64,000 nucleotides of DNA from Polytrichum commune. Its lineage: Eukaryota; Streptophyta; Polytrichopsida; Polytrichales; Polytrichaceae. Numbering within the stretch: the first letter of the stretch is position 1; each line of letters opens with the position of its first letter. Location: assembly GCA_950295325.1 (NCBI GenBank), contig OX485809.1, positions 38,781,081 to 38,845,080 on the forward strand, in the 5' to 3' direction. This document shows, piece by piece, positions 6,618 to 59,040 of the stretch. The notes beneath the pieces are model-generated. The model had not been told where the DNA came from, made no database searches, and saw nothing but the letters and a program-made list of their open reading frames with translations. A program made the translations under genes and the position numbers.

Positions 6618-7469
6618 GAAATACGACTTCAATGTTGCCACCAACATGAATTATGGTGTTGCTTCATTTTTGAGTTGGTTTGAATCTATATGTAATTCTG
6701 AAATAGGCGTTACAAGATTTAGAGGGCACAAGATGATTACACTAAATATGATATTTAATGTCACCAATTCTAATCGTCTTGCTCAATACTAATTGTAAAT
6801 TGCGGTATAGTGTCACCAACACTAAATGTTAACCCAACATTATTTGTCATTCCTTGTAATTTTTTAAAAAAAAGTTGGGGGGGATTATAGACTTACAATG
6901 TTGCAATTACCGCCACTTACCAAACGATTTTTTATCCAAATTCCAATTATCCATGACAAAATTTCGTCACACATTGTTGATAAGAGAAGGCATGGTTTTG
7001 GCCAATGGATGAACTCATCCATCATCCATGACAACATTTCTTCAATTATTCATAAGTTTTGGCATCTAAAAGGCTACATGAATGTGGAGAATATTTTGTG
7101 GAATATTGTCAGTCCCACAAAACATTGTTATGAATCTGAATAATGTTATGTACCATAGCGATATAGAATAGCATATGACACTAAATATCATATTTAGTGT
7201 ACTATCTTCTTTCAAAGGTGAAGGATACGGACAAGCCAATTGGCACCTATCTCCCGCAAGGGCAAAACCCTAGGTTCTCACGTGGTTTGTTGAATATATC
7301 CGGTTCACCAAGGTACCCCTGCTACGATTGGGTGGATTGTAGGTGGTAGGGTGCACCAGAGATCAAGTGCTTGGAAGGTCACCCATTTGAAGACTATTTT
7401 GGCCTTAGGCAACTTAACCTCATAGTTCTCATGAGATCCGGGTTAAGGCCTTGGATTTCAGCTACCCTA
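6618..7469 (-). mobile_element. 5S-rRNA-like retroelement, copy 1 (interrupted by TIR element B)
   Basis: On the minus strand the element begins at 7469 with a 5S-rRNA-like head. The stretch 7450-7367 reads like the plant 5S gene from GGATCC through the TTAAG box to GGGTGACC. A tail follows that runs down to about 6618. TIR element B (6738-7201) splits it; without B the copy is about 390 bp. Head and tail match the copies at 30,860-31,200 and 36,566-37,527. Known relatives of this design are 5S-derived SINEs (SINE3 type) and Cassandra TRIM LTRs. Confidence 0.7.
6738..7201. mobile_element. MITE-like element, TIR family 1, copy B
   Basis: The left end reads TACACTAAATATGATATTTA. The right end at 7201 is its inverted complement with one or two differences. 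The 464-bp element carries no transposase. It is flanked by TA on both sides and lies inside a 5S-like repeat. The uninterrupted relative at about 30,930 has a single TA at the matching site ('aaatactgcctccttcc'), which confirms the boundaries. The interior is shared with copy C (53,101-53,476), plus an extra segment that copy C lacks. Confidence 0.85.
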
Positions 7470-7569
7470 GACATGTACATGTATAGAGTGGTATTTCACA
7501 ATCCACCTAATAAAGACCAATATTTTATTACAAAATGTCCCATAATGGTTGAAGACAATCAACATAACA

Positions 7570-7835
7570 CATATGATGTGTCACGGCATGTGCACTTTCA
7601 TTTTTTGTTTAGACAACAGTTTGGGTTGTCTTGCAACAAAATTTAGGTTGACCACCAAATATTATTCATGGCAGGACATGCATGATTCCATGTCACATTC
7701 CCATTTGTTTTATGACACATTCAATTTTTCTTTTTGGATGACCGAAGTGGGACCGTCACTTGTTTTTCTAACCAATGAGAGAATTTAGAAATCGGTGGTC
7801 ACAATCCGTGGTCACTAGCATAAAAGGCCCTAAGA
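7570..7835. repeat. Dispersed repeat family R3, copy 2
   Basis: It shares 'gaccaccaaatattattcatgg' -like text, the mid-part 'ccatgtcac' and the end 'ggtcac..aatccgtggtcac' with 3828-4120 and 45,060-45,345. No gene is supported. Confidence 0.6.
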
Positions 7836-9042
7836 TTACTCAACCTCAATCAACCGTTCCATTTTCTAAGGGCATGGGCTTGAAAAAGGGTACCAATAGT
7901 CATGGAATGCGTGGTGGTCGTTTGGGGTCCGGCTTGGATTGAATGGTGAGCTCCGTGTGCCCTCTATCTACAACCCCTCCCATTCGCTGAAATAAGGTTT
8001 GTTAGCTAAAAATATAATTTTTGAAATTCCGTTTATTATGTGATTAAAAAATGATTTTTTAGCATGGTTTTTATACTTTGAGTATCATAGCACCATGGTG
8101 CATTGACGTGTGATTGGAGCTTCATTTGACTAGGCTCATTATTTCTGGTTTTTCCTAGGGTTTTTTTGGGAGAGGAGGGGGGGGGGGGGAATTATTTTTT
8201 GCACGAATCATCTATGGTGCTATGGTATGTGATTGAACTATTTTCGGGATAGTGATAATTTGCAACTTTATTGAATTGTGGGACTGCTATGATTGTAGGT
8301 CTTGTTGTAATTAGGTTGGAGCTCATTGATGGAATAACTATGATTAGCTATGATTTCATGGGCTTGTGAAATTAAGGGATGATAGAAGAATATGGCGTTA
8401 TAATCAATAGTCGAACATTGCACAATAACCGTCACTACACATGGGAAAATGGTTCATGGCATTATAATTTACTATACAATGGAAAATCGATCCATGATGG
8501 CTTGCCCAACTATAGTGGGTCTACCCTACCTACTTACATTAAGTTACCTATCCATAGCTAACAACCTATAAGTGCACGTTGTGATGGGCCTATCAACCTC
8601 GCCGCCTAGCTTAGCCATAGCTAATGACCGACACGTGCACAATTGCCATGCACACATCCAATACTAGTATGTGTATATGGATATTTGATAAGTACAACAC
8701 GCTATGCATCTCTTGAGGTAATTTTGGCATGTATGGCAACCACGTGACTCGTTCTTGTGGATTCATCCCATGCCAAACTTGATGTGTTGTAACGGGGAAC
8801 GGGAAGCATTTCATAATGCATTCACAAAGTTTGGGTCAAAACTAAGTAAGTTTGGCTACATACAAAATTCTCACTTTCAAGTCAAATTCTACATGTAATG
8901 AAAACAATAATAGAGAGGCAACGTGTGTGATCATAGCCATAGAAAAAAATTCAATGAGAATACTAAGTATTTGCTACTAAATATCTCAATATGGTAGCGC
9001 GATCGCCATTTGTAAAGGTTGTAGGCTAAGTTTGATTGTTAT

Positions 9043-9270
9043 CTAAGGGTGGCTTAAACCCAAGACCTTGACCCATATTACATGGGAACTCTGAGGTTAA
9101 GTCATCTAAGATTGGAATAATACTTGGATGGGTGACGTTCCTAACACTCAATTTTTGGTGCACTCTACTGCCCGTGATCCACCCAATCATAGTGGGGGTA
9201 TCCGGTGAATTGAATATTTTCAACCAATCATGTGAGAACATAGGGGCTTTGCCCTCGGGGGAGATATGGG
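9043..9270 (+). mobile_element. 5S-rRNA-like retroelement, copy 2
   Basis: The copy starts at AAGGGTGGCTTAAACCC and runs through a 5S-like head (about 9045-9170). The head has the 'gaggttaag' A-box-like segment and the 'ggatgggtgac' C-box-like segment at 5S-like spacing. It ends with 'ggtgcactct', matching the 3' end of 5S rRNA. The tail stops near 9270, short of the tail in copies 1, 4 and 5, so this copy is 3' truncated. Confidence 0.72.
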
Positions 9271-9284
9271 CGCAATTTGAATAA

Positions 9285-9400
9285 CATGGGTGGGCACATG
9301 TCATGCTATGTGTGGGCATGGGTGGGCATGGGTGCGCACATATCATGCTATGGGTGGGCATGGGTGGGCATAGGTCGCTGCTGATGGGCATGGTCTGGGT
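9285..9400. repeat. Tandem 'gggtgggcat' repeats
   Basis: Short tandem units of about 10-12 bases (tgggtgggcatg), partly arranged in longer ~50-base units with 'cacatatcatgctatg'. The minus-strand frame across it (MPTHS-type peptide) only reflects the repeat. Confidence 0.8.
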
Positions 9401-9589
9401 ATGGGTGCAAATTTAAAGGAAAATGTTGGGCTCTAGTTGCCACTCCAATGCAGACTTTGCTTGAACATCAATGGTGCTCATTTTGGTAGAAATGAAATAT
9501 TTTATGATGTTCTTGTAAACATGTCCTTCATGCTCACGTCAACTTTATAATTAAACTTTGGACACTATTTGAATTTTAAGGAATTCATG

Positions 9590-10015
9590 CGATTATGTAG
9601 CTAGAAATGTGGGACATTGCACATATCCACATATCCCAAATGTAAGGCGGCTAGCTCATTGTGGGTTGCACATTTTGGCATGAGAATTTGTGGAGATGCT
9701 CGACTATTGGGTCGCTCCTATCAAGTGGACCACACAATCGTTCCACTCATTTTCTAGGTGAATTTAATTGGTCAAAGGTTTTTTTATTTGGGGCAAAACA
9801 TGACATTTTTGTGTGAACCCCTTCCCATTAATTTTACAATTTGAAATTTTGGATGATATTTCATTACCCCCCCCTGTAAAGTAGCCCATCTCTCATGTTT
9901 CAAGATCCTACAAATATATCCCGCTTCAACCTCATAACTTGTCCATGAGGATTCCGCAAACAACGTTGAGTGAAATGCACTCAAAACAACCCTTTCATAG
10001 CCTTGGGAAGTTAAA
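9590..10015. repeat. Dispersed repeat family R2, copy 3 (inverted)
   Basis: The reverse complement of the first two-thirds of copies 1 and 2. It ends at 'ccctttcatagccttggg' (about 9990-10,008), the inverted start of the family. Confidence 0.65.
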
Positions 10016-10248
10016 GGTTAAGATCGTAGAGAAAGAGAGAGCAAAGTGACACCGACTCTTTGTTGACCCTTGATCATAGTCACGATCTCATGTGTGAATG
10101 CAAAATGGGGTCATAGAGCTTGGCTATGGGCCAAATGTTATTGCCTCCTTTTGGAGGTGCTCCTTTTTGGTAGCTAGGTGCTAAGGTAGCATGACACTAC
10201 ATTCACTTTGTTTTTCCTTGTGCCGAAGGTTTTAATTTTCCAAACACT

Positions 10249-10420
10249 CAAGGGTGGCTTAAACCCAAGGCCTTTAACCCAATCCCATGGGAGCTATGAG
10301 GTTAAGCCATCCATGGCCAATATAGTATTCAGACGGGTGACATTCTTAATGCTTGACTTTATAGTGCACCCTATCACCCATATTCCACCCAATAATAGTA
10401 GGGGCATCTAAGTGAACTGA
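10249..10420 (+). mobile_element. 5S-rRNA-like retroelement, copy 3
   Basis: It starts at CAAGGGTGGCTTAAACCC, continues through a 5S-like head with 'gaggttaagccatc' and 'gacgggtgacatt', and ends in 'gtgcaccctatcaccc' plus a short tail. The start coincides with copy 2, which argues that this is the true 5' end of the element. Confidence 0.72.
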
Positions 10421-10689
10421 GTACCTTTATCAAATTCATTACAAGTCACTATGTGCGGATGTCAAGAAATGTAACATTCCAAGACAACAAGCTATCACTA
10501 CCCACCAAGAGTCACATCACAATGTATTATCACATTCTACAAATTTAAAAATATATGGTATCGCTAAAAAAATAGCATATAATAAATACGAACATGCTAA
10601 AAGCATTTAGGGGGATTAAACTCACGTTTTGGCCAGGTTGTTTGGGAGTTTGATCCAAAGACAAGTTTACGCTTCAGTCTAATGTAATG

Positions 10690-10930
10690 TAGGTTTGTAG
10701 AATACACCTTAAACTTTGTAATATCAACCTCATGAATGTCACTCCTTTTCTTATATCCCGAAACCCTAGGGAACATATGTTCTCGGTTTAAATGTCACTC
10801 TTTGTTGTCACACTTCCCTCCCATATATCGTTTAGTCATGCTTGTTCCCGGATCCTCTGGAGGAAGCACGAGTAGAATTACCTTGGCCCATTTACCTTCA
10901 TTACATGTTACTTTGTTCTCTTGACAAAAT
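10690..10930. repeat. Dispersed repeat family R4, copy 1
   Basis: It contains 'gaaaccctagggaacatatg', then 'gttgtcacacttccctccca'. Relatives lie at about 28,440-28,900 and 52,440-52,770. The full copies begin 'aaactccgtaatatca' and end near 'ttg(g/a)ttgccacaggtg'. No coding capacity; class unknown. Confidence 0.65.
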
Positions 10931-10952
10931 ACCTTTGTGTTGTTTGCTTGTG

Positions 10953-11018
10953 TGTGTGTGTGTGTGTGGTTTTTTTTTTTTTTTTTGGGGGGGGGTGGGG
11001 GTGGTGGTGGTTAAGGGG
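10953..11018. repeat. Compound microsatellite (GT)n-(T)n-(G)n
   Basis: A GT run, a T run of about 16 and a G-rich run with GTGGTG. Confidence 0.95.
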
Positions 11019-13390
11019 TTAGGGGGCATTTAGGGCATTTAGGTAGCAAAGAGCAAAGACTTTGAAACAACTTGAAGAACTTAGAAAACCAAAGTTGGGT
11101 TGATGTGTAGAGAAGATCATTGAAGGTCACCGTACATTGTGAAAGAAAATTACCTTAAGAGATCAAATTGTATGTATGTCGGGATCTCTAGCATGTGGGA
11201 GATGCGAGATGTGTTTCATACTTCATTGAGATGTTGAATTTCCTCCCTGCCTACATAATCTCGGGCTTAAAGTGTTTCAACTTCATGAATTGAAAGGTCG
11301 GGGATTCCACATAGGTGGGTTGTTGAGAGTGGACAAACTTTAGGCATAAGAAGAATTTGGGTGGTGGGCGCCCAAATACTGGTAGAGACCATTGGTTGTC
11401 AAATCTATATAAAATTTGAGGTGGGTGGTTCGTTTGGCTTCGTCTTCATGGTCCTATGGTCTCTATTGCGTTTCCAAGTTTGATTGTGTTTGAGTTTTGG
11501 ATAAGGTGAGCACACATGACTTGGTGTAATTTGAAGTCAAAATGCCTCAAATTGTGCACATAATGCCATGAAGCTTTCACGACTTCTGTTTGATTTTGGG
11601 ATTATCAAAGAGGTAGAGCTTTCAAATTGTAGTGATTGTAGTGATGCATCTTCATGCCATTGTAGGATCTTATGACAACGTTCAATTGTCTTGTTTGAGA
11701 TTTGTGTTGTATTTTCTAATACTTTGTTGTTGAAGGGGTAAGGTAGGAAAACCGAAAACGGTGAATGACCACTACTGGTGCACTAGACTAGGGGTAGAAT
11801 GTTTATTGTGGACCCCATATGACTAATTGTAAAAGGGGTGGCTCGAAAAGGATAAGCGGGATGCAATGATTGGTTGAATAGGTGTTGTTTCACACCACTT
11901 GCGATCGCTTTTGAATGCCATTGAGTTAATTATTTGGTGTGCATTGTATGCAGAGTAGGATGTTTTGATGCTTAAATTAGGGAGACTCGTGTACAATAAG
12001 AGGTTTGACTTACTTATTTCTTTGGGAAAATGTAACCAAGGATTTACAAGGAATCAAATTACAAAAGAATTTACATTCTTTATCATTTCCTCTTTGAAAA
12101 ATTTTGCACAAATTTCAAGCCACCATTTTTGGCCAAACCAACTTATTTTCACCATTTTCCGTATGTCTGCCTTAAGCGTTGTAACTTAACTCAAAATCTT
12201 GGGATGTGGTTGCGCATCAAAATCTTTGTCTTCACGCTTTTGAGTTCACATAAATCTCTACCACCTTTTATGGATATAATGGTTCCTCGAACTTGCATGC
12301 GTCAACTAAACGATAACCTAGAGCCTTGAAAAGTTTTGGATAGTGAATATGTCATGTCTTAGGAATTGTCACTATACACCGTGGATCAACCTATGCAAGG
12401 CTCGCATGGCACACCAATATTAATCCTAATATGACAAGTGAGAAAGCCAAATTTTTAATAGCCCAAACCCACTCTTTTAGCATGTTACTCTAAGCCTTGA
12501 GAAAACTTGGTTAACTTTACGGATCAATTCTCAAACTCATAATCAAGCTTAGCCAACTCACTGGAAATTGCAGTTCGATCCCAAGACAAATGTACACACA
12601 ACTCTAATGTAGCATATCAATGACTCTCCATGTGCCACATTGCCTTAAGTGGTCCCCTTGCCATTGATGCTCAACCACAAGAAAATGTTGTCCTCTAACT
12701 GTGTTATCGACCATCCACCTACTTGGGGGTCGCCGAATGCGACCAATGACCCATATGACGTGTATCTTGGATTGGCCTGGGACATGTGCCATTATAGTCC
12801 TTTGCACTCATGTATACGACACATTAGTGTAACATGGTCCCCCTTTGTTTCCAAAACTATGGGCAATGGTAGGGTTGACAACCACCACACCTTTTATTGT
12901 ATATAGATTTTTTGTAGAATAAAATTGCATGGGGCATTCATCATAAGCTAGAGGCCCCTAATTCAACTACTTATCTTAATCAAACACCTATTTTTGAATG
13001 ATATGTGGTTAAGTGTAGTTCCAAGAACAACTACCAAAAAGACACGTGTTAAAAAAAAATCAGACTATGTGTTCACATTATCATAACCATTCTAAGCTCA
13101 ATAGTTAACATAAGGAGGAGGGCGCTATATTACCATTTAATCGAGCACAAGAAGAATAGTGACTTTATCAAGAACAAGAGATTCATATGAGCTCCAAAAA
13201 TTGTGAGGAAAGTGGCTATGGCCTCGATTTGGATATATTCACCCTCTCACACTAATTGTGTGTTTCATATATAGGAGATGTATACCCGTTGCAAAAAAAG
13301 AGTAAACATTTAAGACCCATATCTATCTACCTTAGAAGGTCTTTTGCTTTCAACCTAGCTAAAAGTATGTATGGCTCGAGCCTTTTAGCA

Positions 13391-13490
13391 TGGGGCCATG
13401 CCATGAGTGACACGTCATACGGACCATGCCATACGTGACACGTCATGCAGGCCATGCCATAAGTGACACGTCATGTAACACCATGCCATG
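13391..13490. repeat. 28-bp tandem repeat carrying TGACACGTCA, upstream of SEC16
   Basis: Three exact copies of TGACACGTCA start at 13,408, 13,436 and 13,464, spaced exactly 28 bases. Each is followed by a variable 8-base part and 'ccatgccat'. TGACACGTCA has an ACGT core of the type bound by plant bZIP factors. The array lies about 0.8 kb 5' of the SEC16 start codon. A regulatory role is inferred from motif and position only. Confidence 0.6.
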
Positions 13491-14211
13491 GGGCCCAAAC
13501 ATAACATAGGATGGGATGTGCCATGGCATGCAGCGGCATCGAGCGGGGCCTAGCGAATGCAGTTGCGGAGGAGGAAAGAAGCTGGGGCAGCTATGGTGAG
13601 GTAGGGTTTCGTCAGGTGGGCAGCAGCAGCGTCCATGGCGATGGCCCAGCTTGCTAGGTAGTCAACAACATTCCACGCTGATTATGCAACTACGGATGAT
13701 GCCGTAACCGCACTTCCCATCCCCTCCAACAATCTCGATCTATCATAAGCCAAACATCCAGTACCCAGCAGGGTTTGGTTTTCGGCACTCAGTTCAACTT
13801 AGGTCAAAAGCAGGGTTACGAGGTTCACCGCGAGCCTGTTGACCATGGCGGAGCCATTCCGTTGCAAGATCTGAGGAGGGAGAGATGGCAGACTTGTGCT
13901 TCAATGGCAGGAGGTTTTAGACGGTAGTTTGAAGTGGCGTAGGGTTCGGTCGAAACAAGGATTCATCGCGAGCTTCAAAGAGGCGATGATGGCAGAGCCG
14001 TTTTGTTGTGAGATCTGATAAGCATCGATGAGAGGGTTTGAGAACTTCGTTTGAAGTGGTGAGTTGTGGAACTTTTTGTCGATGTTATGAAGGGTTTGAC
14101 GATTTGGGAGTAGGGAGTTTTTGATGGATCTGTGAATCGAGATGCGTTGCCGTTACGGCTGGACGAGGAGGGAGGAGGCGGTAGGAGCTGGGAAAGAGTG
14201 AAGCGGAAGAG

Positions 14212-14221
14212 TGACACGTGG
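14212..14221. promoter_or_regulatory. G-box/ABRE-like TGACACGTGG just 5' of SEC16
   Basis: TGACACGTGG (reverse CCACGTGTCA) lies about 43 bases before the first ATG of SEC16, in the probable promoter or leader. It contains the palindromic G-box CACGTG. It shares TGACACGT with the upstream 28-bp repeats. No convincing TATA box was seen nearby. Confidence 0.4.
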
Positions 14222-14263
14222 GGTTAGGGGATTGGAGAGAAAGTAATTTGACTCGGGGGTGGG

Positions 14264-17200
14264 ATGGGGTTAGAGGTCGGAGACGGATCTCCATCCGCGT
14301 CTACATCCGAGGGAGCCATGGAAGATCCGGTAGCGCCTTTGATTGAATCATGTGAGGCACTTGATCTGGGAGGAGCAAGCGATGACGTGACGGCGTTGGC
14401 GGACAGCAATGGACACCTGACGACGACGGAGGAGGAGGAAGGAGCAGAGCACGGGATCAGTGAACAAGGGGAGACTCCAATTGCGCAGGCGGGCGAAGAA
14501 GTGCCTCCGGTCCAGCCGGTGTCAGGGTTTCAACCCCAGAAGAAGAGTTGGAGCGATTTCAATGCAGTGTCTGCGCGGACATTCGGAGAGCAGAGCTCGT
14601 TTGGGTCTTTTTCGGATTTTCTTGCAGACCTGCCATCTGAATCTTCCCCTTCTCAGCCTTCACATATGACAGCAATGGGATCGGATGTCGATTTTTTCAG
14701 TTGGGCTGAAGGTGAATCGGATGCATCGCCAATCATAGGAATTGGGTCAGGTTTCACTACTCCTCAGCCTCAGCCTCCAGCTGTGCCTGCGGTACAGGAG
14801 GCATTGGCCGAAGAGGAGCCTATAATAGCAGGGAATGACGATGATGTTCTACATGAAGTGTCCCCCGCATCATCACAAATAGAAGAGCAACATCAAAATC
14901 TGGCATTGGATCATCAGCAGCAGGTGGCAACATGGTCTGAATATTCAGCTGACCAAGGGCAGAATGTTGTTGCTGAGGCAGATGCATTGCAGAGTGCAGA
15001 AGACCCTTATCCTGGATGGTACTATGATTATCAGGTAAATGAATGGCGACAAATCGAGGGGTACAGTGCAGGTGGAACTGCTGCAGTGGAGACATCAATG
15101 ACCCAATACATTGAACAGTCATCTATCAACAATGCCCTAGAAATGGCTGGTTCTTTGGAACCGGACGGAAGTCAGATGCAGGGTGAAGTTGTGCAGTCTC
15201 ACTCTGGATTGGAGGACTCTCAAGCTTGGGGCGTGCAATCCAGTGCAACTCAAACAACAACAGATCAGTATCCGGGCTGGACTTGGGATCCTTACTCACA
15301 AACATGGCTCCCAGTCGCAGGGTATGAGGAATCAACACAGGCCTATACTGGGCAGGAGCAATCGTGGTATGGACAGCAAGAGCAGCAGCAAGAGCAGCAG
15401 GCGTCGTACAATGATCAAGCTTATGGGTCAACCAGTGGCGATCAACAAGATCCTTCTCAGCAGCTGTCTCAATCTTTTTACTCTGGATATATGCCTGATA
15501 GCACGAATGTGGTGAGCAGTGGGTATACATCTCAAAGTGTGAATTCAGTGAACCCTAGTTTAGGGTATGGGCAAGAGGCGAAACCTTGGCAACCTGAACT
15601 GCCGCACAATAATGCAATGGGAGGTGTGGCCCCTGCAATTTTCACTCCACAGATGAATGGGAGTCACGGTTGGGCGCCATCTATGTATAACATTTCTGAA
15701 ACAGCTGTGAGCCCAAGCGCACTGGCAAATACATTCTCTCCCGTGGACCCATATTCTCAATCAAGTTCATATCATGGATACTCACAAAATGGCATGCTAG
15801 ACAATTTCTCACAGCCAAGTTGGGGTAGTAATTCTCAGTACAATCAGTACCAACACAAATCCACAAATCCAACAGCTCCTCCTCCTAAAAATGTTCAGGA
15901 GGCTATGCAGACATGTGTTGGACGACCTCCTCATATACTTGCTACATTTGGATTTGGGGGTAAACTGATCTTCATGAAGCTTAGGGATCCTGTGACTCTG
16001 CATACAAGCAATGGCGACCAGGTATGTAAGCTAACACTAGCTGTTACTGTTTCACCAGTTGACTTTGTAGGACATCCTGCCTCGCTTTGTAGGGATTCAT
16101 GGTTAAATGTCCCTTATTTGCAACTGCAAAGAAGTGGTATGTTTGCTTGTGTTTGACTTTCTACATGCTGATTAAAATGTATACCTTTCATGGTGGAAGT
16201 GGTGGTGTAAGGGACAATTGCAATTCTAAACATGTACTCATTTGGTGTTAGATGATGTTTTATGTTGATAAATTTAGCTGTGTCATGTTACATTCTATGA
16301 TTGTTTCTCTTACTGTGTAAACTTATTTTACCAAAGCTGGGCAATTCAGTTGCAAACCCTTACTTTTAAACTAGGTGGGATGGTCAAGTTTATCTGCTGA
16401 TAAACTTAGAGACAAGTGAGTAGCTGCTGGAAAAAAGTATATGATTGGTTTTTCAAGGGAGTAGTTTTTGCCGTTGGAATGTTGGATTTGGTAGGACTAC
16501 TGGCATAAGATTGAACAAGTTGTAAAATGCATTAATTGCAACTCTAGCAATTTTTTTGAAACTGGACTGCAAAACATTTAAACTGCAAAAAGAAGTTGAT
16601 CTTAATGTCAGGATATCTCTAATGGCTTGTTACTTCATGGAGCAGGCTACTGCAAGTGGTCAAGCATGGATGCCAGGTCCAGTGCAGGTTAAAAATTTGG
16701 GCATGTATTTATATAAGGAATCCAGCTATACGGGCCCACTCATGGGTGGTGGAGCAAGTTCAAAAGACTTAAACAAGTGGATTGATGATCGTGTATCCAC
16801 ATATCAGCCCTATGATTCTTCTCGGCTGTTGTTGGGTCTCCTGAAGGTTGCATGTCAGCACTATGGGAAGCTACGATCTCTTAATGGGACTGCTAGCAAT
16901 TCTTCCATGGTATGGTTTTGTTTCTTTACTCCACTGCAAGAAACCCTTGGTACTGGACCAACTGATCTGGTTGAGGGGTGTGGAGTTTGAGCATTTTCTT
17001 TATCTTTATGTGGTTCCATATGGCATGATTAAGGATTTTAAATGGATTTTTTAATACCTCACTTGTGAGAAAGACCTAGAGTTTGAGCAAGGCTGCATGG
17101 TTTGCAGGAGGAAGATGGACCAGAGGCAGCGTTGGCCAAGCTTCTTGCAGGCTCTGCAGGGGATCAAGGTGCATACCCAGGAGGGGTGCATAGGAGCACA

Positions 17201-23942: not shown

Positions 23943-24476
23943 ACCACATTTGATAATGTCAAAGAGGTTTTTCTTGCAGAAAGTGGAACTCTTTCCATCT
24001 CTTGGGCATAAGCAAGATTACCTACATCTCAAGGATTTTTTCAAATACAAATGTGAATTGTACTTGAAGCAACCATTGACACCATCACAATGCAAGATCA
24101 TTGCCACTTATTGCACCTTGAATCATAGACTTGCCATCGAATCTAGATGGTGGTCAACTGTTCCTATCCGTGGAGATAATAGATTATGCCACTTTTTCTT
24201 ATCCAATGTAGTTGAAAATGAGGCACACTTTGTGCTAGAGTGTCCCCTATACAACCCCATTAGAGATAAGTTTCAATCATTATTTGAGAAGGCAATATTA
24301 GGGATTCTCAAGTCTTCCTTTCAATTAGATCAACAAGTTGATGTTAGCCTCTACCTCATCGAGGACATTGCACTCCGCCACACTAGGAAATTAGGTGGTT
24401 TGCCACCACCCTGATGAATCTTTAGTCCCATGAGCCTTTCGGCTTCCCATACTCTGAAATTCATTTCATTTCATTG
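23943..24476 (+). mobile_element. LINE 3' end with degenerate RT zinc-binding (zf-RVT) segment
   Basis: The frame 23,950-24,414 encodes about 154 residues resembling the C-terminus of plant non-LTR retrotransposon polyproteins. It has a zf-RVT-like segment (CHFFLSNVVENEAHFVLEC) followed by PLYNPIRDKF. The usual second Cys of the first CxxC is Phe here, so the finger looks broken. After the stop come 'tagtcccatgagcctttcgg' and a short (CATTT)n-like tail ending near 24,476, as expected of a LINE 3' end. No endonuclease or RT core lies upstream, so this is a 5'-truncated dead copy. A second fragment is at 31,335-32,040. Confidence 0.8.
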
Positions 24477-25712
24477 AGCCTAGAATGGTTAATGTCTTTT
24501 GAGCACGCAATCGAATCTCTTTCTAAACATGTCTTGTGGGTGCCCATTCCTAGATACTACTCATATCTAGGCATCCATATAATTGTTGTGTTGGAAATAG
24601 GCACATCTACCTTACTCAATTACCACAAGAGCACACATGAATTTCTATATTTCTATATTTCTATCTTTCCTTAATGTTGGCAGTGATCAAATTCAAGTTT
24701 TTGGACATTTACTTATAACTTCTATGATATATCCTTGGGCCATAACAGATTTATGCCATGCTATAACTTTACACATCATGTTTCAGTTTTTATAAATAAG
24801 TACAACAAATTATACCTCACTTGATAATAATTAACTCTTGAAGTAAAAAGTGATTCCCTTCTATGACATTGAGTGTGCTTACTTAAAGTCAACAAAGCTT
24901 GGGAGATTGGGAAACCTACATGATCATTCAAGGAGAAAGTAAATCTTCACATTAATAATGCACAAGAAAGTGCACAGAAACTACTGTGTGGGCTAAGCTC
25001 CTTGAATATGTTGTGAGAATTGCATGTGGCCACACATCAGATTAATGTCAGAAAACTAAGGTGGTAACAGACTACCTTGAGAAGTTTGAATTTTTTTGGG
25101 GTGTGCATGGTATCTTGTGAGAGAGAGGAAGAGAAAGTAGTGGCACTTTAAAAACATCACTCATGTGAAGTGTGAGGAAAGAACAACAAAGGTATGATAA
25201 GATGCCTTGGGTAATTTTGAGAAAGTTAGACATGACCTTATTAATCACTTAGAGGCAACAATGTGTTGCTACCCCTCTTCGCAACAACAGTTTCGATAAG
25301 TACCTAAAGTGAGTAATGCTGGGTCATTCAGATATCTCAATAGTACTATCGAGTATTCTGTTGGTCCTCTACATGTATCCTTTAAAAAGCCATTTTCACT
25401 ACACAATAATCATCTAGAACTGGTTATTAAAGAGGGGGTGTAATGTCAAACAAATCTGGAAGATACAGAATAGCGACAGACAACTTTGAGAAACAGAGAA
25501 GTTCCAGGAACTCTTGACATGTTGGGCTTTTATAGAAGAATTTCGCAAACCTAAGTATATACAAAAGATCAAATTAAAGACGATGATAAAGTTCTGAATA
25601 GTGCTCTCAAGCACAACTTATCCTCTAAATCTCATTTGGCAACTTGCATATATATTCAATTCACCAAAAATTCTCTGCTTTGTCAGTATACCACAAACTG
25701 AAGCAAAAGCAT
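24477..25712. other. Intergenic stretch between LINE fragment and LHC-like gene
   Basis: AT-rich sequence with no supported gene. It begins with an R1-like segment (24,480-24,680). The rest resembles nothing else in the window and probably includes the 3' untranslated region of the minus-strand LHC-like gene. Confidence 0.5.
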
Positions 25713-28900: not shown

Positions 28901-30860
28901 TTCACATTTTATTAACAAAATTTGGATTGGTTGTTCGAACGTTATAGAACATAAATGACATTGCTTGGTAAACTATTACATTCTCATTAAATAGTTGTAG
29001 CCTTGTGTAACTTCGAATAGTAACACACAATACTTGGGATAATTGATGTAGTATGTACCAATGTTGGTCGGCTGGGGATTCGTGGCACTCATGTATTTTC
29101 ATTAGTGAGAGTTCATTCATCTTTACGGATGAGATGAATCACTTAAGATACTACCTTACGTCGTCGGCTCCTTCTCTCAAGGGTTTTAAAAAAACCAAGT
29201 TTTAGTAGTTCTAAATTATCCTACTCTAATTCAATACTTAAGGCAATAATACAAAGGGGGTTAGACATAAAAAACAATATGCCTCATATAGATGCAAGTG
29301 AATGCATCATGCGTTGCCAACCTGTCATTACTAGTCCGGTTATTTTTAAGAAATTAATATGGGCGGACGTTAAATACCCTCTCATGAATTTTCGGGGGTG
29401 TTAGATTTGGGCTGGGGCAACCTTCTAAAGAAATTTTAGAACCCGGCCAAAAATTGTTGCCCATTCCGCCCAACTTTAAAAAAAAATTGCCCTTGCATTC
29501 TTGAAGGCCAGCCACTTGACTACAAATCCCATATTGAGTGCATTTCACCTTCAAGGTCTAAAATCCAATATATATGTGCACTTCCAATTGGTAAATAAGC
29601 AATTGATTGGGATTTCATTTCGGAAGTGAAACCATTAATGAAGCACATAATTAACTTGGAGGTCAAGAACATTACAAAATCCTCATTAACATTGAAGTTA
29701 TAATTTTGTGACTTACCATTTAAAATTATCTTTGCCATTCTTATGATAGATTAGTATAAGTATTCATAAGATAACCAAAATGAAACAATGAAGATAGAAT
29801 ATAAAATATACAACAAAAATATTATATAAAAATCAATTTTTATTTTTTAGGTAATACAATGATGTATAAATAAATGATATGTTATTTGGAATTAGACTTG
29901 TGGGACAACATTATGGATGGGGTATAGTAAAAAAATCATAAGTTTTTGACTATTGCCTATCTGAATTATTGTAATATTTTATCCTCATCACATATTGTAT
30001 TATCTTTAAAATCACATAGTGTATATTAATTATTTTAAAAATAAAAATAAAAATAAAAATGTATTATTATTATTGAATTTATTTTTTGAGTTCACCAATT
30101 TACCACGATGACATTCTGTTGTGTGCTGGTTTCGGGAGGGAGCAATGGGTGGGCCTTGATGTCATTCTACTCAACGAGCTTGGTGTCCTGGTGGCAGATG
30201 ACATATGTAGAAACTCCGATCTATCGTGTAAATAGCGATCGTGTGTCACTGCAGCTCGAGTACCAACCACCACTAACAAACAACACTAAAACATAGCAAA
30301 GTCACACATAAACAACACACCTCGACAGAGAAGGAAGAGAGTCAAACCCTTGCAAGAGCTCTACATCTCTCTTCAAATGCACACAATGGGTCAAGCTATC
30401 TCTCACTCCACCACGGGAGAATCCAAGAGTGTAAGTAGGGGGAGAAGAACTCAAAATTTATTGCAACAACATGCAATCTTCACCTCACACAAGCTCTCTC
30501 CACACACTCACTCACAAGACTTGACTTGGCAAAAATGCCAAGCCAAGGAGGAGGCTTCTCACTTAGGAGCCTTCCTCTTCACATCTAGATTCATCCATCC
30601 AAATCTAGATGGATGAAATCCAACGGATAAGGTGTGGCCGTCGACGCCGCATACCGTGACAGTTCTGATTAAGAAAAGTAATTGATAAACACCCACCCGC
30701 ACTTTAGCATATTGTTTCTCAAACTCGATCGGCTCATTTGTAACTAGCGGCTGGTTCTCCCCATGCATTGTCTGGAACGTTCCACCACCACACAAAAGTG
30801 AACGTTCTACTACCAACATAGAAACTGCATTTCCCTTCATCTGACTCACAATCTTCAAGT
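28900..30860. other. AT-rich intergenic sequence
   Basis: No gene supported. 29,750-30,090 is very AT-rich with 'aaataaaaataaaaat' runs. 30,100-30,620 has short open frames on both strands without family resemblance. Confidence 0.5.
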
Positions 30861-31200
30861 TGTCTAAATCTATATGTAATCTTGAAATGGGCATTACATG
30901 AATTAGAGGGCCCCCAATAAATACTGCCTCCTTCCAAAAGTGAACACCTTGAACAAGCTAGGACAAACTAGTTGGCACCTATCTCCCCCAAGGGAAAACC
31001 CCCTAGATTCATATATGTTGCTTGAAAATATTCAGTTTACTCAAATACCCTCACTATGATTGGGTGATCAAAGGTGGTAGGGTGCACTGGAAATCAAGTG
31101 CTAGGAAAGCCACCCATCTGAGTGCTATGCCAGCCTTAGGCAACTTAACCTAAGAGTCTCATGGGATCCGGGTCAAGGCCTCGGGTTTAAGCCACCCTTG
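30860..31200 (-). mobile_element. 5S-rRNA-like retroelement, copy 4 (least interrupted)
   Basis: Read on the minus strand it begins at 31,200 with CAAGGGTGGCTTAAACCC. It has GGATCCCATG and the TTAAG box, reaches the GGGTGGC-type box near 31,110, and ends the 5S-like part with 'gtgcaccctacc' near 31,077. The tail runs to about 30,860. It keeps the best match to plant 5S rRNA (GACCCGGATCCCATGAGA). It also supplies the empty site for TIR element B. Confidence 0.75.
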
Positions 31201-31334
31201 TGAAGGGGGAATTAATGTAGATTCACGATACATTTCTACTTCTTGTCATGTGACTCTGTTTCGTCTCAAAATCTATAAAATCCGTTGTGTAAGTATAAGT
31301 AGGCAAGTCCTTGAAGATTGCATTGAGGACCTAC

Positions 31335-32040
31335 CCAATTTGCTTTTATAATGTAGTTGAAAATGGGGCACTCAATTATGTTGGAGCATCCCTTGTATAA
31401 CTCCATTACAAATCAAATTTAATCAGTATTTGAGAATGTACTATTAGGGAGTCTGAAGTATTTCTTCCATTTGGAAACTTCAAGTCGACATTAGCCTACA
31501 TCTCACAAAGAACATAATATTCGTGAAAACGGCACAATCGCATGTGACCATTTTTTTTTGAAGGCCAACTTAGTTTCTAGTCTTGCAGAGTGCACTCCAA
31601 CTTTGGATAAATAGGTATTTTGAAACTAATTCTGTATGGGCACCTATGGTGCAAGTTTATAGAGTAAGAAACAACCCTTTTATATCATCTTTGTCATGTT
31701 TTGATTGCTATCAAAAGTTTTTGAAGTAACAATGAAGAACATAACATTCATGATATAAAAAGAAATTTTCCCTTCTTATCACTTGCACATGCTACTAGCA
31801 TTTTGTAAATATATCCAAATGTAATTGGCAAAGGTGCCTTCAAAGACCAATTCAAGCCGCCCTTACTTATATTCAAGAAAACGGCATTTGTGATATTTTT
31901 GCATACCATGTTGAAGGCTACTGCACTCCACCACTCTAGGGAACTAGCCGGTTTGACACAATCCTAATGTACATTTAGTCCCATAAGCCTTTTGACCTCC
32001 TGGACTTAAAAACCAACCTCCTTTCCTTTCCTTTCAATTA
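31335..32040 (+). mobile_element. LINE 3' end, second degenerate fragment
   Basis: 31,340-31,500 is a diverged relative of 24,190-24,370 (the region coding VVENEAHFVLECPLYN), with frameshifts. After about 410 bp of unrelated sequence, 31,915-32,038 matches 24,365-24,476 ('ctccaccactctagggaact', then 'tagtcccataagcctttt' and a (CTTTC)n tail). This is a dead, interrupted copy of the same LINE family. Confidence 0.75.
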
Positions 32041-32150
32041 ATATCACCCAATGTACTAAATTTGGCCTAATATATACATGTGCCACTTCATTCATGTCCT
32101 AGGCTTTAGGTGCAATATTAATGTACACTACAAGGAAAGAGGAAATTATT

Positions 32151-32368
32151 GTATACGAGGGTACCTCTCATTCATCCAACATAAAACCCCTTGAAATAGT
32201 GTGTAGCCCACAGGTTACCTTTTTTCTTAATGTTGATTTGACACCGGAATTAGCTTTAAACACCCGGAATTTCTCTACTCAAGATCATTTGAAATGAATT
32301 GGCAACGAAATTAACGAGGCTCCAAGTTGTTGATTGATGTTTGATGGATGAGAGGTACGCTCGTGTAT
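32151..32368. mobile_element. MITE-like element, TIR family 2, copy 2
   Basis: The left end 'gtatacgagggtacctctca' pairs with the right end 'gagaggtacgctcgtgtat'; the inverted repeats are about 28-30 bp with few mismatches. It is the best-preserved copy of the family, about 218 bp, and inverted relative to copy 1. There is no open frame. Confidence 0.8.
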
Positions 32369-32578
32369 GATCATTTCCCTCTCTCCACGATACACCTATT
32401 GCCCCTTGCACGTTGCCGTTGATTGCATCAATCTTGACGACATTCTAGAGCATGCGTTCCAAACAATGGCTCCAAGTTGGTCGTCGTGAGGATATGGTTT
32501 CATATTCAAGTTGCAATGCAACTCACGAAGATTGATTATGACGAAGTTTTGCCACCTTGTTCCTGACGTCATGCATGC

Positions 32579-32606
32579 ACATATATATATATATATATAT
32601 ATATAT
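32579..32606. repeat. (AT)n microsatellite
   Basis: A perfect AT dinucleotide run. Confidence 0.95.
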
Positions 32607-33882
32607 TGATTGATGGCGAATGAAATGAAAGAAAGCTATATTGCTCGTTGTAGTACACCTGACAGCATTTCTGGCGCCATGCCATGGGAAAGAACTTGCA
32701 AATTGTCACGAGTTTCGTGAAGTCCAGAAAACAATCCACATGGTGCAATCTTAAGACCACTCCAGACTTCGATGCACATCTTTCGTACAAAATTATACAA
32801 CATCATCATCGGCTGCGATGACGAACTTGACGTTGCAATGTGGAGAATAGCCTCTTGATGACTCACGACAGATGTGGGAGGCAATTGGGCCAAATTCGAT
32901 ATAGCCATGTGAACATTTACACACCTCCTCGACGTCGTTTACTATCAACGCCAAGATTTGCAACATACTTCTGCTGCTGGGCTCGAAGATGATTCGGGTC
33001 AGTTTATCTTCGTTTTGCATTTGTGGGTTGCTCCATCCTCCTCACCTCTTGTATTTGTGTTTTTTCTTAGCGTATGTCCATTACCTTCATAACATTGGTA
33101 AGCTTGATGCTTCCTCGCCCTACGCAAGACAGTAATACGGTCAAGGGCTTGGAATAAACATGTTGTGATTCTCAAATAACGGCAGTCTGAGTTTTCGTGT
33201 TACAACAAGGTATTCATAGGACATGGCGTTTATTTTATTTAGAAAGAGTGAGAGAGCATGAGGCTCAACACATGTGGCATGCCACGGGAGCACATGATAC
33301 TCGCTATAAGCCGCTTCATGAGGGGTAACTGGTGTTCCACTAGAAAATGTGGTGTGATAAAAGATAGTGCCCTAGTTAACCTTTCGAAGTAAAAAATCAC
33401 AAGAGCACTAGAGAAATTTAGGGTATTGGAATTCCATTTTGAGGACACGATAGTTCATGACATTACTCAGCGACGCGGGCCCTTACAAAATATAACAGTG
33501 GGATGCTGGGAGCTTAGTCTAAATTTGAGTCTCCTTGTGCAGCTTTTCGAGCATCCCATTATTATATTATGAGGACCCACATAATGAGATTTCAACGCCG
33601 AGGAATGTTATGTTAGTTATCTTCCAAGATTGTTCATTGAATATACAAAATATCCCATGAATTTACGCGCCTTGCTTCACAGACCCCTTGAAAATACCCC
33701 TCATAGAAGACAAGATTATCAGCATTTATATCCAATAGCCTCATATTATTGCTCATTTATTGCATATAAAAAGTTCCAAAATGTCACTGGCTTTGTAGAA
33801 AAAGTGAGATTCTTGGAAAAATCAATGAAAGAGCAGAGTCACGATATGGAGAATTTTCTGGAATTTGTGAATTTGCTTGCAG

Positions 33883-36800
33883 GCCATTCGGGGCAAAGGG
33901 TTGCAGGAGTTGAAAAGGACTCGATGTATTGTGGCGCCATGGATTCGTTGCATGTCTGCAAAAGGAGGGGTACGTTTTTCTTCATTGAATGACACTTGAG
34001 ATATTTGAACTTCCTATTGAAAGCTTTCGGTGAGATTCAGCATGACTCTTAAAGGTTCCACAAAAGATTTTGTAGCATGAAGATTATATCTGAGATGCTC
34101 ATGAATGATAAACATTAAGTGTCATCTCATTCCTTACCTACCACCTGTTGTTCTGCTGCCCGCGTGCTGAAGCATTCTTGAAATTTACTTTGACTCTGGT
34201 GCATTTTTGTTGCAAGAAAGTGGTAAATTATGCCCAACTTCTATGATTGAATTTCAGGATATGAAGGCCAGATTGGCTGAAATCATTCCGAAAGAGCAGG
34301 TAATATCTCTACACTCTAGTGTGCATAAGTTAGTCCGGAAGTGAAGGGTATGGCAATGATGAACCTGGAAGTGCGTTGCTGGTTAAATCAATGTTAGGGT
34401 TGAAGAAACATTCTCTTAGCGCATGGTGCAACTCCCTTGTGGAGATACAAATCGCATGCAATAAAGGGATATTTTCAAGGGGGTTAAGAAGAATGTGCAT
34501 ATACTCGGGATATTATGCGCATTTGATGAATATTCTCATAATAAACTTGTTGCATTTTCGACATGTATTTCTAATACCCTATATTTTTATAATATTTTTA
34601 TACTTCTTATTTTGAAATATTAAATAGGACCCTATGTTTTATCACATGCCAATTATTGTCCTTGACTTGGCAAAATAGAGATTGATCAGTGATTTGAGGA
34701 ACTTGGTTCTAACTTTCAACTAGTCACCTTATAAGCTCTATAATCGTTTGTCAGGAACGTCTTAAGAAAATCAAGAAAGAATATGGCGCAATTTCTCTCG
34801 GAGATACGACTGTGGACATGGTAGTTTTTTCATGAATACTGGATGACTATGTGGAGTGAAAACTGTAGCATGTTTTGCCACTTGAGTGGTCTTTACTTGT
34901 ATATTACAAGGGAAAATTAATCAACATAAAATCCTAAATTTTTTCAATTTTTTAGGATGTTTAGTGGGTATACAATGTAGGTCTCAAGGTGAGTTTCCGA
35001 GTGTAACTTCACCTTTTCAACATAAAGATATACATAACATTTATTAAGTAGTGCACATTCAGGACTTAATTTGAGTCTCCTTGCACTAGGTTGGAACATT
35101 CCATGGTTATATTCTCATGGCCCACGAGAATGAACGAATGCCAACTGCTTAGTAATGTAATGTAATCAAATTGAAAAGAGACAGTCTTCAATAAAGATTT
35201 CTCAATTGAGTGCTAATGGCATTCTTGACTTGTGGATGTTAGTGCATTGGTGGGATGCGAGGAATCAAAGGCATGCTTTGGGAGACCTCTTTGCTCGATG
35301 CAGACGAGGTGGGCTTCTGGCAATTAAATTCACCTCATGGTTACACACATAGAAAACTCCCCATGTTCATATCTTTGTGGAGTTGGAGGTCTTCACCTTG
35401 TAACGATTACACTGGTTTTTGCAGGATAATTATTTTCCTGAAACACAGTGCTAAATTTTTATAAAACTATCAATAGGAGATCAGATAGAAAATTAACTGA
35501 CTACATGATTTAAGGAATCATTGAGTACTTCCAGTACGTGGCTGTGTATAGAATTCAACTTCACTCCAAACATGTGGACTTTTGGGTGGCAGGGGATTCG
35601 CTTCAGGGGTTTGTCAATTCCCGAATGCCAGAAGAAATTACCTGCAGCAATAAGCGGGGGTGAACCAATACCTGAAGGACTGCTGTGGTTATTGGTTACG
35701 GGTGAGGTGAGCTTTACTACATTTAATTAATTTATTGAAATCACTGAACTATTATTAAGCTTTGGCCTGGCTCTGCACAACACGTAGATCTAATCGATAA
35801 AACCAGTGCTTGCAGCAGAGTAGGTGAGATTACAAACTTATGGATGTGGAGTAATAAAAGTCTCCTCAGATTCTGTCTGTCATGATTTCATGTCAAACAG
35901 TGCCTCTCCTGGCAATGAAAATTACTGCATCTTATTACTCGAAAACCGTCTGGATGCAACAAAAATTACAGATTGATGTTTCTTTTGTTTTTGCAACTTT
36001 AAGGTTCCCACAAAGGAGCAAACAGCTGGACTTACTAAGGATCTCAGATCGCGCTCCAAGGTGCCAGGTATATCTGTGTTGGGACACCAGGAAAAATTAA
36101 TCTTGAGAATAATTTGGACTATATTTCCTGTGTGTGGTATCTTTGATCAAACTCCAGGTTAGACTCTAGTCTTCGGACAAGGAAGCTGTCTCAATTTGGA
36201 AGTTTTCTCTCTAAACGCTATAGATGTCCGCTGAACGTTAGAGTAGATCAACTTTGGTGTGGTTGCGACCTTAACCCTTTTCAGTCGAATTTGCTGGTTA
36301 CAATTGCTATACAACCTTGGGATAAATATTTGCCTCCAAAACGGAGATGAAGAGTAACTGCATTTCTCAGTGTTCGAGTTCATTGTCGTGTGATAGGATT
36401 TGTGTTTGACGTGTTGAACAAGTTCCCGACATCAGCCCACCCCATGACCCAGCTCACTGCAGGCATTATGGCCCTCCAGGTATGCCTTGCACTCAAAAGA
36501 AAAGATGCAACGCTCTTCACTTCTCTAGTAGTCCTCAAGGTTTCTAGTTCCTTAGGAAGAAAGAAAGACGATTCCGATGTTGCCCCCACGGTGAATTATG
36601 GCATTGCTTCATTTTTTAGGCTGTTTTAAGTCTATACGTAATCTTGAAGTGGGCAATACGAGAATTAGAGGGTTTCTGAAGACTACTCCCTCCTTTTGAA
36701 GATAAATATCTTGAACTGGCATGGACAAGCCGACCGGCACTTATTAGTCCCAAGGGCAAGCCCCTAAGTTCTTACATGGTTGGGGCCAAAGCATGGTAAA

Positions 36801-39800
36801 GTGAACAAAAGTTGTACCCTGTCAATGTAGAGGCGCAAGTACCTACATATCCTAATTATATGACTCAAAAAAATAATAATGATTCATATTGAAGTTACTA
36901 ATAAGGTGGGTCATGATGTTTTCGTAAATATATTTGCAATCTACATGATTTACATTCATAAAAATAGATTCTAAAGTTTGTAGAATCTACTTCCATAATT
37001 GTCGGTTCTTGGAAAGTGAGGGTGAAGTAGACCTTAAGGAAATGTATTTTGCTTCAAATTTTGTGGCACACGAACATACCATACGGTCTTGCCAAATACT
37101 TAAACTATACACACAAATCATAACAAATTTTGAATGAAGTAGGTTTTAGTTTAATCCACCATCTAGTTTAAGATCTATTTCATACGTATCTCCATAATAC
37201 TGATGAGGCACAAATTTTGTACTATGTTTGGTTCAAACCCATTGGAGGGCTCCATGGTCTCAAAATGATATTTTGTATAGAATTGAGCCTACTTCCCTTA
37301 TTATATATGGAAATTGTATCACAGTGGAAGGACGGACCACTTTTCTTGTTCACTCTACCATGCATTGGCCCGTTGGTTGAATATATTCATTATACCCATA
37401 TTACCCCACTATGATTGGGTGGACCATAGTGGTAAGGTGCACTTAGGAAGGTCACCCATCCGAGCACTATTCCAACCTTAGGCCACTTAGCCTTTCGATT
37501 CCCATGGGATCTAGGATAAGGCGCCTACTGGAATCCAGTAAGTTCAATGTCATATTCATTTGTCAACTTTGTGACATTCTTAGTTTCCACTGAGAGAAAG
37601 TGTCAAATTTGTGACATTATTGTTCTCAATAAGTTGACAATAACACAAGTCAAAAGTGGGCCTTGGGTTTAAGCTACCTTATTTTCTTAGTTCTTCAAGT
37701 ATCCTCGAGTATCCTGGTTCCTTAATTACCTATGTTCTATCTTGTGATCTGTCAAAGCACTCATTCCAGAGACTACATCAAACTATCTAGCCCAGTGTTT
37801 TTAAAGATTAGAAAATATGTTTTTGAATGATTACACTTTGGGGTGCAGACTGAAAGTCAATTTGCTAAGGCCTATGAGAGTGGGCTCCATAAAAGCAAGT
37901 AAGAGGTTCTGCTTGTAAATGTTTTGTTACACAGCTTTGAAATAAAATCACTTGGTTTTGAGAAATCCTTGAACAATAGCAAGAGTTCCATCAATGCTTC
38001 CTGGATGTAGGTATTGGCAACCCACATATGAGGACTCCATGAATCTGATGGCACGACTGCCAGAGGTTGCAGCCTTCATCTACCGAAGGTTTGATGATTT
38101 CTTTTCTTTTTTTTTTAATTTCAATGGTGCTTTTGAAATTTCTATGATATTAGCATTTGAACATTTTTTCAGACCGAGGAGGATAAGGTTATGAATGGAC
38201 TCTTGAAAACAGTGATTCAATTAAGGAAATATATCTACAACCTAAACTATCCTAAGATTCCAGATTGCCTGAGTTTTATTTGCCAGCATGAATAGAGTAG
38301 GTTCAAATTGCAGGGTTTACAAAGGAGGAAAGACAATCCCTGCAGATCCAAACTTGGACTATGCAGCCAATTATGCACATATGTTAGGCTACAAGGATCA
38401 AAAGTTTCACGAGCTCATGCGACTCTACATAACCATCCACAGGTCAATCCTCAAAATTTGCATCAAATACTCCTCCTGTGATTGTGATTTTTTTCGTCGT
38501 TATGGAAGAAATTAACTGCTGAATGCCCAGTTGTCAAGTGTATAGATAATTAGGCCTTGTTGTTAGATTTTTGACTGGTTTAAGTCCAATGTGACTTGTC
38601 ATGGAACAGTGATCATGAAGGCGGGAATGTGAGTGCGCATACTGTGCATCTGGTAATTTCTCAAACCACTTTATTTGAAATCCTGTACAATCATTTGATT
38701 ACATCTTTGGTCCAGAATTTGACAATGCTTCAAATTGAATACATGTCAGGTGGGAAGTGCATTGTCTGATCCATACCTATCAGTTGCAGCTGGAATGAAT
38801 GGTTTGGCTGGTCCCCTTCACGGTCTTGCTAACCAGGTCATTACCAACTTTCCCTCCACATAGCACTTTTTACCATACATTTTATGCTGGAGGTAGTAAG
38901 CCATCAGAGCATGTTAAAATGCAAACAAGGTGTTTCACAAGGGGCAGAGGAAGCCATTCAGAACATCAGCTGGTTAAACAAAAGTCGCACAGAACACCTG
39001 GAATACTTGCAATGATACTTTTACATTTTTAGAATGCAAAAGGGAAGGTATTATTGAGCACACTAATGCCAAGTGTCATGTTTATATATTACGCAAGAGG
39101 AAGATAATATTATAAGTGTCATGTGTTTACACTTGTGGTCAACTTCTTGATCACTTTGTAACCTAGGCATAGACCTCATAATACTCTTGAGCATACTAAA
39201 AAGAAGATATCAGAAAGCTCCATCAATGCCAAGTGTCTTGTGTTCACAATTAATGGTCAAGTGTTGATCATCAAATACTACAAAACAGAACACTACCCTA
39301 TAACTCGTCGAGGTTCACAAGCTACCAGGAATAATGTGGGCTGAGATAGGTGTGAACTAGTCTGCAGGAAGTATTGCGGTGGATACAGGATGTAGTGAAA
39401 GAGGTTGGAGCAGATGTCACTACTGAGCAGCTCAAGGAATTTGTTTGGAAAACATTGAAAAGTGGCAAGGTTGGTTATAATTTTCTTATGACAAGGTCTT
39501 TAGTTTGTATTGGTTGACAAGATGCTTTGCCCTTACCTGGACTCCAATTTGAAATGATATCCAGTGTGCTGGCATAATACTATCCGATTACTCTTTCTAT
39601 GTAAGTTGTTTTAGAAATTGATTGGAACAAGTTCTAACTGCTGGTGTTCAATCATTTTAGAGCTCTAGTGGAATAAACAAATGAACATGGTGACAATGGG
39701 ACAGGTGGTGCCAGGTTACGGGCATGCAGTGTTGCGGAAAACAGATCCTCGGTACCAATGTCAGAGGGAATTTGCTTTGAAGCATCTTCCAGATGACCCG

Positions 39801-59018: not shown

Positions 59019-59040
59019 CTCTCTCTCTCTCTCTCTCTCT
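59019..59040. repeat. (CT)n microsatellite
   Basis: A CT dinucleotide run of about 11 units. Confidence 0.95.

Follow-up and report, generated by a model that had tools for sequence, protein, structure and literature searches.

Short interspersed nuclear elements (SINEs) of the SINE3 type, which carry a head derived from 5S rRNA, are represented in animals and fungi by zebrafish SINE3, Ped-1, HaSE3/PxSE4, and AfuSINE3 in the accessible parts of the literature on them, where the length of PxSE4/5 is put at 389 bp (among PMC5063351, PMC8010984, and PMC7215508). Cassandra, a terminal-repeat retrotransposon in miniature (TRIM) with long terminal repeats (LTRs), also carries 5S sequence; the available portion of one account records it from monocots, dicots, and ferns and places its 5S part near the middle of the LTR, never at an LTR end (PMC10853983). 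Here we analyze a family of 5S-headed repeats in a 64,000-nt stretch of Polytrichum commune contig OX485809.1 (the window, meaning the whole stretch, to whose positions the coordinates refer) and elsewhere in the same genome. An initial annotation of the window had favored a 5S-derived SINE over Cassandra. That preference was upheld: the repeats are very probably one SINE family of the SINE3 type, and not Cassandra, because, in a test on up to 50 loci, they have fixed ends, with a 5' start at 5S position 1, and target duplications, and because they are without a TG start, a primer site, inverted repeats, or a convincing LTR pair.

The element resembles SINE3 families in its 5S head at the 5' end with box A, the intermediate element, and box C, in its length, and in non-LTR insertion with target duplications. 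It differs in that its host has plant-type telomeres (TTTAGGG repeats at four of the five contig ends read, the fifth reading N) and in that, of the two 5S types compared, its head is nearer to that of the host itself. The SINE3 families were set beside the element by description, a comparison that covers neither its body nor its (TTTC)n tail. Like Cassandra, it is a short noncoding retroelement bearing a 5S internal promoter, but here the 5S part is terminal, there is no LTR pair, primer site, or TG start, and the duplications vary in length. With tRNA-derived plant SINEs (Angio-SINEs, Au, and p-SINE) it appears to share the design of a short plant non-LTR retroelement with an RNA polymerase III (pol III)-type promoter, whereas those have a tRNA head in place of a 5S head. 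Excerpted descriptions assign a 37-bp Angio-domain to the 3' end of Angio-SINE, (A)n or (T)n tails to seed-plant SINEs, and tRNA heads to land-plant pairs of SINEs and long interspersed nuclear elements (LINEs); the same excerpts describe Chlamydomonas SINEX-2_CR as having a (CTTT)n tail, a partner LINE named RandI, and a head of unknown origin (PMC3747384 for all but the Angio-domain). By description, SINEX-2_CR is like the present element in tail type and in belonging to the green lineage.

The family consists of one element of about 398 nt, longer than the heads listed initially, made up of a 5S head, a body of about 280 nt, a fixed 3' sequence, and a short (TTTC)n-type tail. Fifty family loci (L001 to L050) were read, and 49 were profiled after L029 was dropped as the same place as L004. 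The element starts at model position 1 to 4 in 40 of the 49 loci (the exceptions are L020, L021, L026, L035, L043, L044, L048, L049, and L050) and ends at position 394 to 398 in 39 (the exceptions are L001, L008, L023, L024, L025, L044, L047, L048, L049, and L050). The fixed ends are not an artifact of the first query, because the 29 loci found through a 22-nt pattern internal to the head show the same ends, with 21 starting at model 1 to 4 and 21 ending at 394 to 398. The profile is blind to similarity outside its own ends, and the boundaries rest on pairwise identity and BLAST coverage. Among 35 copies, mean pairwise identity in 5-base blocks is 0.26 and 0.35 upstream of base 1 and 0.67, 0.67, 0.80, and 0.87 from base 1 inward. 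On the 3' side of the same copies it is 0.75 in the last five model bases and then falls, across the tail and on into the flank, to 0.57, 0.45, 0.32, and 0.26. BLAST coverage among L001 to L020, which is unbounded by the profile, halts at the same two ends. Copies truncated at the 5' end are undercounted, since the pattern-found loci necessarily contain the head.

The pyrimidine run at the 3' end has a median of 11 nt, counting the last six model bases, and frequently consists of TTTC units. The initial annotation had looked for an A-rich or LINE-like 3' end; a fixed 3' end with a simple-sequence tail is indeed present, but that tail is pyrimidine rich rather than A rich. Its further claim of a shared non-5S part is confirmed by the common body and 3' end. 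Internal blocks are absent in some copies (L028, L034, L036, L037, and L047). No further Rfam family was found inside the element in six loci. A tRNA head was tried as a candidate and rejected, ARAGORN finding none in 8 of the 50 family loci. RNA folding of seven plurality segments gave z scores of -3.3 to +0.2 relative to mononucleotide shuffles, from which nothing was concluded.

Flanking duplications were evaluated in the 35 of 49 loci in which both ends could be placed; 14 loci were dropped, eight because no tail match lay in the searched range and six because there was no head match. The upstream and downstream flanks of the same copy had a mean score of 8.6, compared with 5.3 for mismatched pairs, and none of 5000 permutations reached the real mean. 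A score of at least 9 was obtained for 14 of the 35 real pairs and for 8 of 1190 mismatched pairs. Duplications are clear in L002 (14 of 14 bases), L040 (12 of 12), L017 and L022 (10 of 10 in each), and L018 (16 of 18), and in clear cases they measure about 8 to 18 bp. Support is strong for flanking duplications that vary in length. Where they are clear, the duplicate on the downstream side comes after the tail, and 0 to 4 additional bases can precede base 1 (by eye). Such placement of the duplicates and of extra 5' bases is expected from target-primed reverse transcription.

Host 5S genes were sought with Rfam model RF00001, which gave 29 matches above the cutoff among 47 scored of 15430 candidates, and 12 loci were read. 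The host 5S is unlike the flowering-plant type. The plurality sequence of 28 heads scores 86 against host 5S (best of 1000 shuffles, 27) and 68 against Arabidopsis 5S (best shuffle, 24); the initial annotation had staked its case on an alignment better than that of shuffled sequence, and such an alignment was obtained. Within a 66-nt core, 55 sites equal host 5S and 52 equal Arabidopsis 5S, and at the 9 core sites that differ between the two, the SINE follows the host at 5, Arabidopsis at 2, and neither at 2. Taken singly, host 5S is the better alignment partner for 30 of 35 heads and Arabidopsis 5S for 4, with 1 tie. Element base 1 aligns with 5S position 1. Similarity to 5S is weaker over the first 28 nt (17 of 27 aligned sites) and at the 5S 3' end (13 of 24), so that the earlier statement that the repeats follow 5S along its whole length holds for extent but not for quality, which is uneven. 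The same annotation described the promoter boxes as the best-kept parts. The core is the best 5S match, but within the family the 5S half is just slightly better conserved than the rest (0.88 versus 0.80 to 0.87, per 60-column block). The positions of the boxes in this head (box A, intermediate element, and box C) were assigned by alignment. These comparisons of sequence would fit a head that was captured within, or has long resided in, the host lineage; this is not proven, because the sole outside 5S compared was the Arabidopsis sequence.

The 12 best host 5S genes (L051 to L062) lie on five large contigs (C1, C2, C3, C5, and C6), and some share upstream flanks; they include one inverted 5S pair 1.1 kb apart. 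Elsewhere, pairs of mid-score 5S matches about 182 bp apart occur at G000:C2:59433593-59433888 and G000:C7:14288127-14288425. They may represent remnants of a 5S tandem, SINE dimers, or an element of the Cassandra type.

In the window itself, local alignment to an Arabidopsis-type 5S gives scores of 40, 36, and 35 for the minus-strand heads at 7.3 to 7.5 kb, 37.4 kb, and 31.1 kb and of 30 and 28 for the plus-strand heads at 9.1 and 10.3 kb. The top score outside the heads is 26, near 44.4 kb on the plus strand and 24.4 kb on the minus strand; two first-order shuffles, each scanned on one strand, peak at 23 and 26, and reversed 5S peaks at 22. By this score alone the plus-strand heads only just exceed the background. 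They are nonetheless certain, because a profile of the family, built from 24 genome copies with no window copy among them, matches them with E values of 5e-66 and 3e-41. All five heads are recovered by this profile (E 8.6e-94 to 4.6e-35), the strongest proof being mutual, and it also recovers a tail-only piece and, for copies 1 and 5, the 3' half. The five heads lie where the initial annotation had placed them and belong, as proposed there, to one repeat family. Its claim that all of them start near one point holds for copies 1 to 4 but not for copy 5, whose first bases lie beyond an insert.

Copies 1 and 5 are nearly full length, and each is split by inserts. Copy 1, on the minus strand, comprises model 1 to 278 at positions 7200 to 7467 (E 2.4e-74), with the 5S-derived head at about 7467 to 7348 followed by body, and model 276 to 398, the 3' body and end, at 6618 to 6740 (E 2.7e-28); position 6618, at which the initially annotated range begins, is its exact 3' end. 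The insert between them, about 460 bp at 6740 to 7199, has ends that begin with CACTA and are inverted copies of each other at 23 of 24 bases; it is placed by the profile break at model 278/276, with an edge good to 1 or 2 bases either way. Because its pieces recur in the window, the insert belongs to another repeat family: the pieces at 7000 to 7056, 7080 to 7150, and 7151 to 7201 have counterparts at 53351 to 53407, at 2290 to 2436 and 44680 to 44741, and at 53426 to 53476. The pyrimidine tail and target duplication of copy 1 are on its low-coordinate side, with flanks GTACATGTCTA and GTAAATGTCCA equal at 9 of 11 positions (by eye). Copy 2 (9047 to 9271, plus strand, E 5.1e-66) covers model 1 to 225, its 3' part being gone beside a GGGCATGGGT-type repeat; copy 3 (10252 to 10434, plus strand, E 3.2e-41) covers model 1 to 182, its 3' part likewise gone; and copy 4 (30851 to 31197, minus strand, E 8.6e-94) covers model 1 to 350, with the final approximately 48 nt gone.

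Copy 5, on the minus strand, begins with a lead-in of about 22 nt at 37658 to 37679 (by alignment), which is separated from the 5S core by insert A, about 135 bp at 37523 to 37657, also placed by alignment and with approximate edges. The 5S core (model 19 to 183) lies at 37372 to 37522 (E 4.6e-35), with about 14 nt absent near the 5S end, and is followed across a profile break by insert B, 588 bp at 36784 to 37371, with terminal inverted repeats GGCCAA...TTGGCC. These repeats agree at 22 of 24 bases when the right end is set at 37370, and on this structure insert B looks like a nonautonomous DNA transposon. The 3' body and end (model 179 to 398) lie at 36563 to 36783 (E 1e-52) and are followed by TTTCTTCC. 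In copy 5, as in copy 1, the two flanks of the copy look alike (by eye). The tail-only fragment at 59096 to 59154 (plus strand, model 340 to 398, E 8.4e-10) showed no clear duplication in its flanks by eye and is either a 5'-truncated copy or possibly the 3' end of a partner LINE.

The genome searched comprises 408 Mb in 64 contigs, with C1 to C5 and C7 totaling about 361 Mb and C6 at least 37.5 Mb. With the copy 2 region (9040 to 9290) as the query, a first look gave 1360 candidates; 40 of these were scored, and every one matched at an E value of 4.3e-42 or below. The 22-nt head pattern, allowing up to 2 mismatches, has 462 genome matches and a 28-nt 3' pattern has 145; the reversed control gave 0 for each. 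The head pattern is met by two of the five window heads and by 12 of 20 copy 2-query loci, and the tail pattern is met by 4 of 49 loci. Scaling the pattern counts by the fraction of known copies that meet each pattern implies a copy number on the order of 1000, a rough figure and not a census. A strict search pattern built on the canonical plant 5S box gave no matches in the genome, the pattern being unsuited to this family. Three loci on C4 (L048 to L050, at 9.02, 9.10, and 9.13 Mb) are near-identical segments with one diverged SINE copy, a local segmental duplication.

It is possible in principle that the repeats are Cassandra, a known plant retroelement with 5S sequence and, in the accessible portion of its description, the same three promoter boxes, in which the 5S part occupies 25 to 75% of the LTR (PMC10853983). 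Such a position is at odds with the extreme 5' location of the 5S part in 40 of 49 loci. The Cassandra signs that were scored are the TG start, the 5-bp duplication, and the Met-tRNA primer site, the CA end being left unscored. The initial annotation had named such signs as support for Cassandra, and they failed to appear: none of 35 copies has a TG start, no initiator-Met-like primer site lies 40 nt or less from the end of any of them, and no convincing LTR pair was seen. An exact abutting 5-bp duplication occurs in 2 of 35, set against clear duplications of about 8 to 18 bp. A point for Cassandra, and one that counts against a SINE, is L001, in which two heads (window copies 2 and 3) lie on one strand 1.2 kb apart. 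However, this is 1 of 49 loci, the pair is only 73% alike, and both members are partial with the 3' end missing. A single element within about 1.5 kb of flank on each side is found in 46 of the 49 loci, and the second matches in L014 and L039 lack the element start (model 204 to 398 and 92 to 397). We consider Cassandra a very improbable explanation.

Scattered 5S pseudogenes or 5S spacer units could also place 5S-like sequence throughout a genome without any mobile element, and dispersed 5S genes do occur here. Yet the copies have a common non-5S body and 3' end as well as target duplications, and when the family profile is run on the 12 host 5S loci, it matches the 5S gene in every one (mostly over model 14 to 98, with E from 4e-13 to 2e-15) but meets only the 5S part there. 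No element body lies beside these genes; L052 alone has a separate tail fragment more than 1 kb away. There is very little room left for this explanation. A miniature inverted-repeat transposable element (MITE) or other DNA transposon with a captured 5S would likewise be short, noncoding, and dispersed, but the ends of the element are not inverted repeats (GGGTGGCTTAAACC versus GAAAGACGACTCC), and both its simple-sequence tail and its duplications vary in length, so that we regard a DNA transposon as extremely unlikely. A refinement of the SINE3 reading fares better. If the tail-only match at 59096 to 59154 were the 3' end of a partner LINE, the element would be a chimera of 5S head and LINE tail, which is the usual SINE design in the part of the source available (PMC3747384). 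With no open frame of at least 110 amino acids on either strand in the 56844 to 59095 interval upstream, and with a truncated SINE as another source of such a match, we give this refinement somewhat less than an even chance.

Several observations weigh against assignment to SINE3. No part of the window brings the Rfam 5S model to its gathering score, which indicates that the window copies have diverged from 5S, and neither does any of six family loci; with relaxed filters the model gives a subthreshold match in L017 (model 1 to 120, 27 bits, E 0.07), a match at chance level in L003 (model 14 to 109, 23 bits, E 0.81), and no match in the other four. Nine of 35 flank pairs score below 7, without a convincing duplication. 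In 28 of 35 copies there are one or more stretches of at least four T residues, which could stop pol III early. No partner LINE was found among the open frames of the loci read (by eye) or of the window. Finally, among the 24 copies that exceed 375 nt, mean identity is 86.7% to their plurality, a divergence of 13%, and 78% between copies. The family looks old and diverged by this measure, and the splitting of window copies 1 and 5 by later insertions is in line with an old family.

If the repeats are a SINE3 family, their first approximately 120 nt would have been taken from a 5S rRNA gene, probably one of the host lineage, together with its type 1 internal promoter for pol III. Transcription by pol III with TFIIIA would begin at element base 1, the equivalent of 5S +1, and the transcript would read through the 5S part, with its degraded 3' end, and the unrelated body as far as a terminator located either at the 3' flank or past it. 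The fixed 3' end and the short (TTTC)n repeat that goes with it may then be recognized by the reverse transcriptase of a LINE, and insertion by target-primed reverse transcription would leave direct repeats of variable length. We infer the mobilization step, because the partner LINE was not found. Frames in L053 and at 23950 to 24414 of the window look like pieces of LINE protein, the latter like a C terminus. The window frame has no Pfam match, and the TTTCATTTCATT end that follows it at about 24465 to 24477 is of the CATTT type, unlike the end of the element.

The window also holds a PI-PLC-X-type gene and a frame that looks Sec16-like, with no Pfam match. This frame and the TTTAGGG telomeres agree with a plant or green-algal host. 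Two nearly identical glycine-rich frames about 8 kb apart (47732 to 48214 and 55920 to 56399) are apparently a local duplication, judged by eye.

The wording "5S ... SINE" in the open-access literature leads to a fungus, moths, fish, amniotes, and ribosome theory. No plant 5S SINE was found among the papers listed; subscription papers and Repbase were mostly beyond this search, and an earlier report is possible. As far as seen within the literature searched, the 5S SINE design has so far come from animals and fungi, and the present family is apparently the first from plants. The accessible part of one paper reports a speculation in which the insertion of a SINE3 into an LTR gave rise to Cassandra (PMC10886601). 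That a green-lineage 5S-headed SINE was the missing donor of the Cassandra 5S promoter in this way, with its head tracking the host 5S over time, is a speculative and unlikely extension of our results. Anyone who looks for 5S genes in this genome by sequence similarity is likely to collect SINE copies. With a 5S-headed SINE in a plant-type genome, the range of SINE3 hosts would extend to the green lineage; such a SINE would also point to another independent origin of SINE3 or to an ancient one and would supply a concrete candidate for the origin of Cassandra by insertion of a SINE3 into an LTR.

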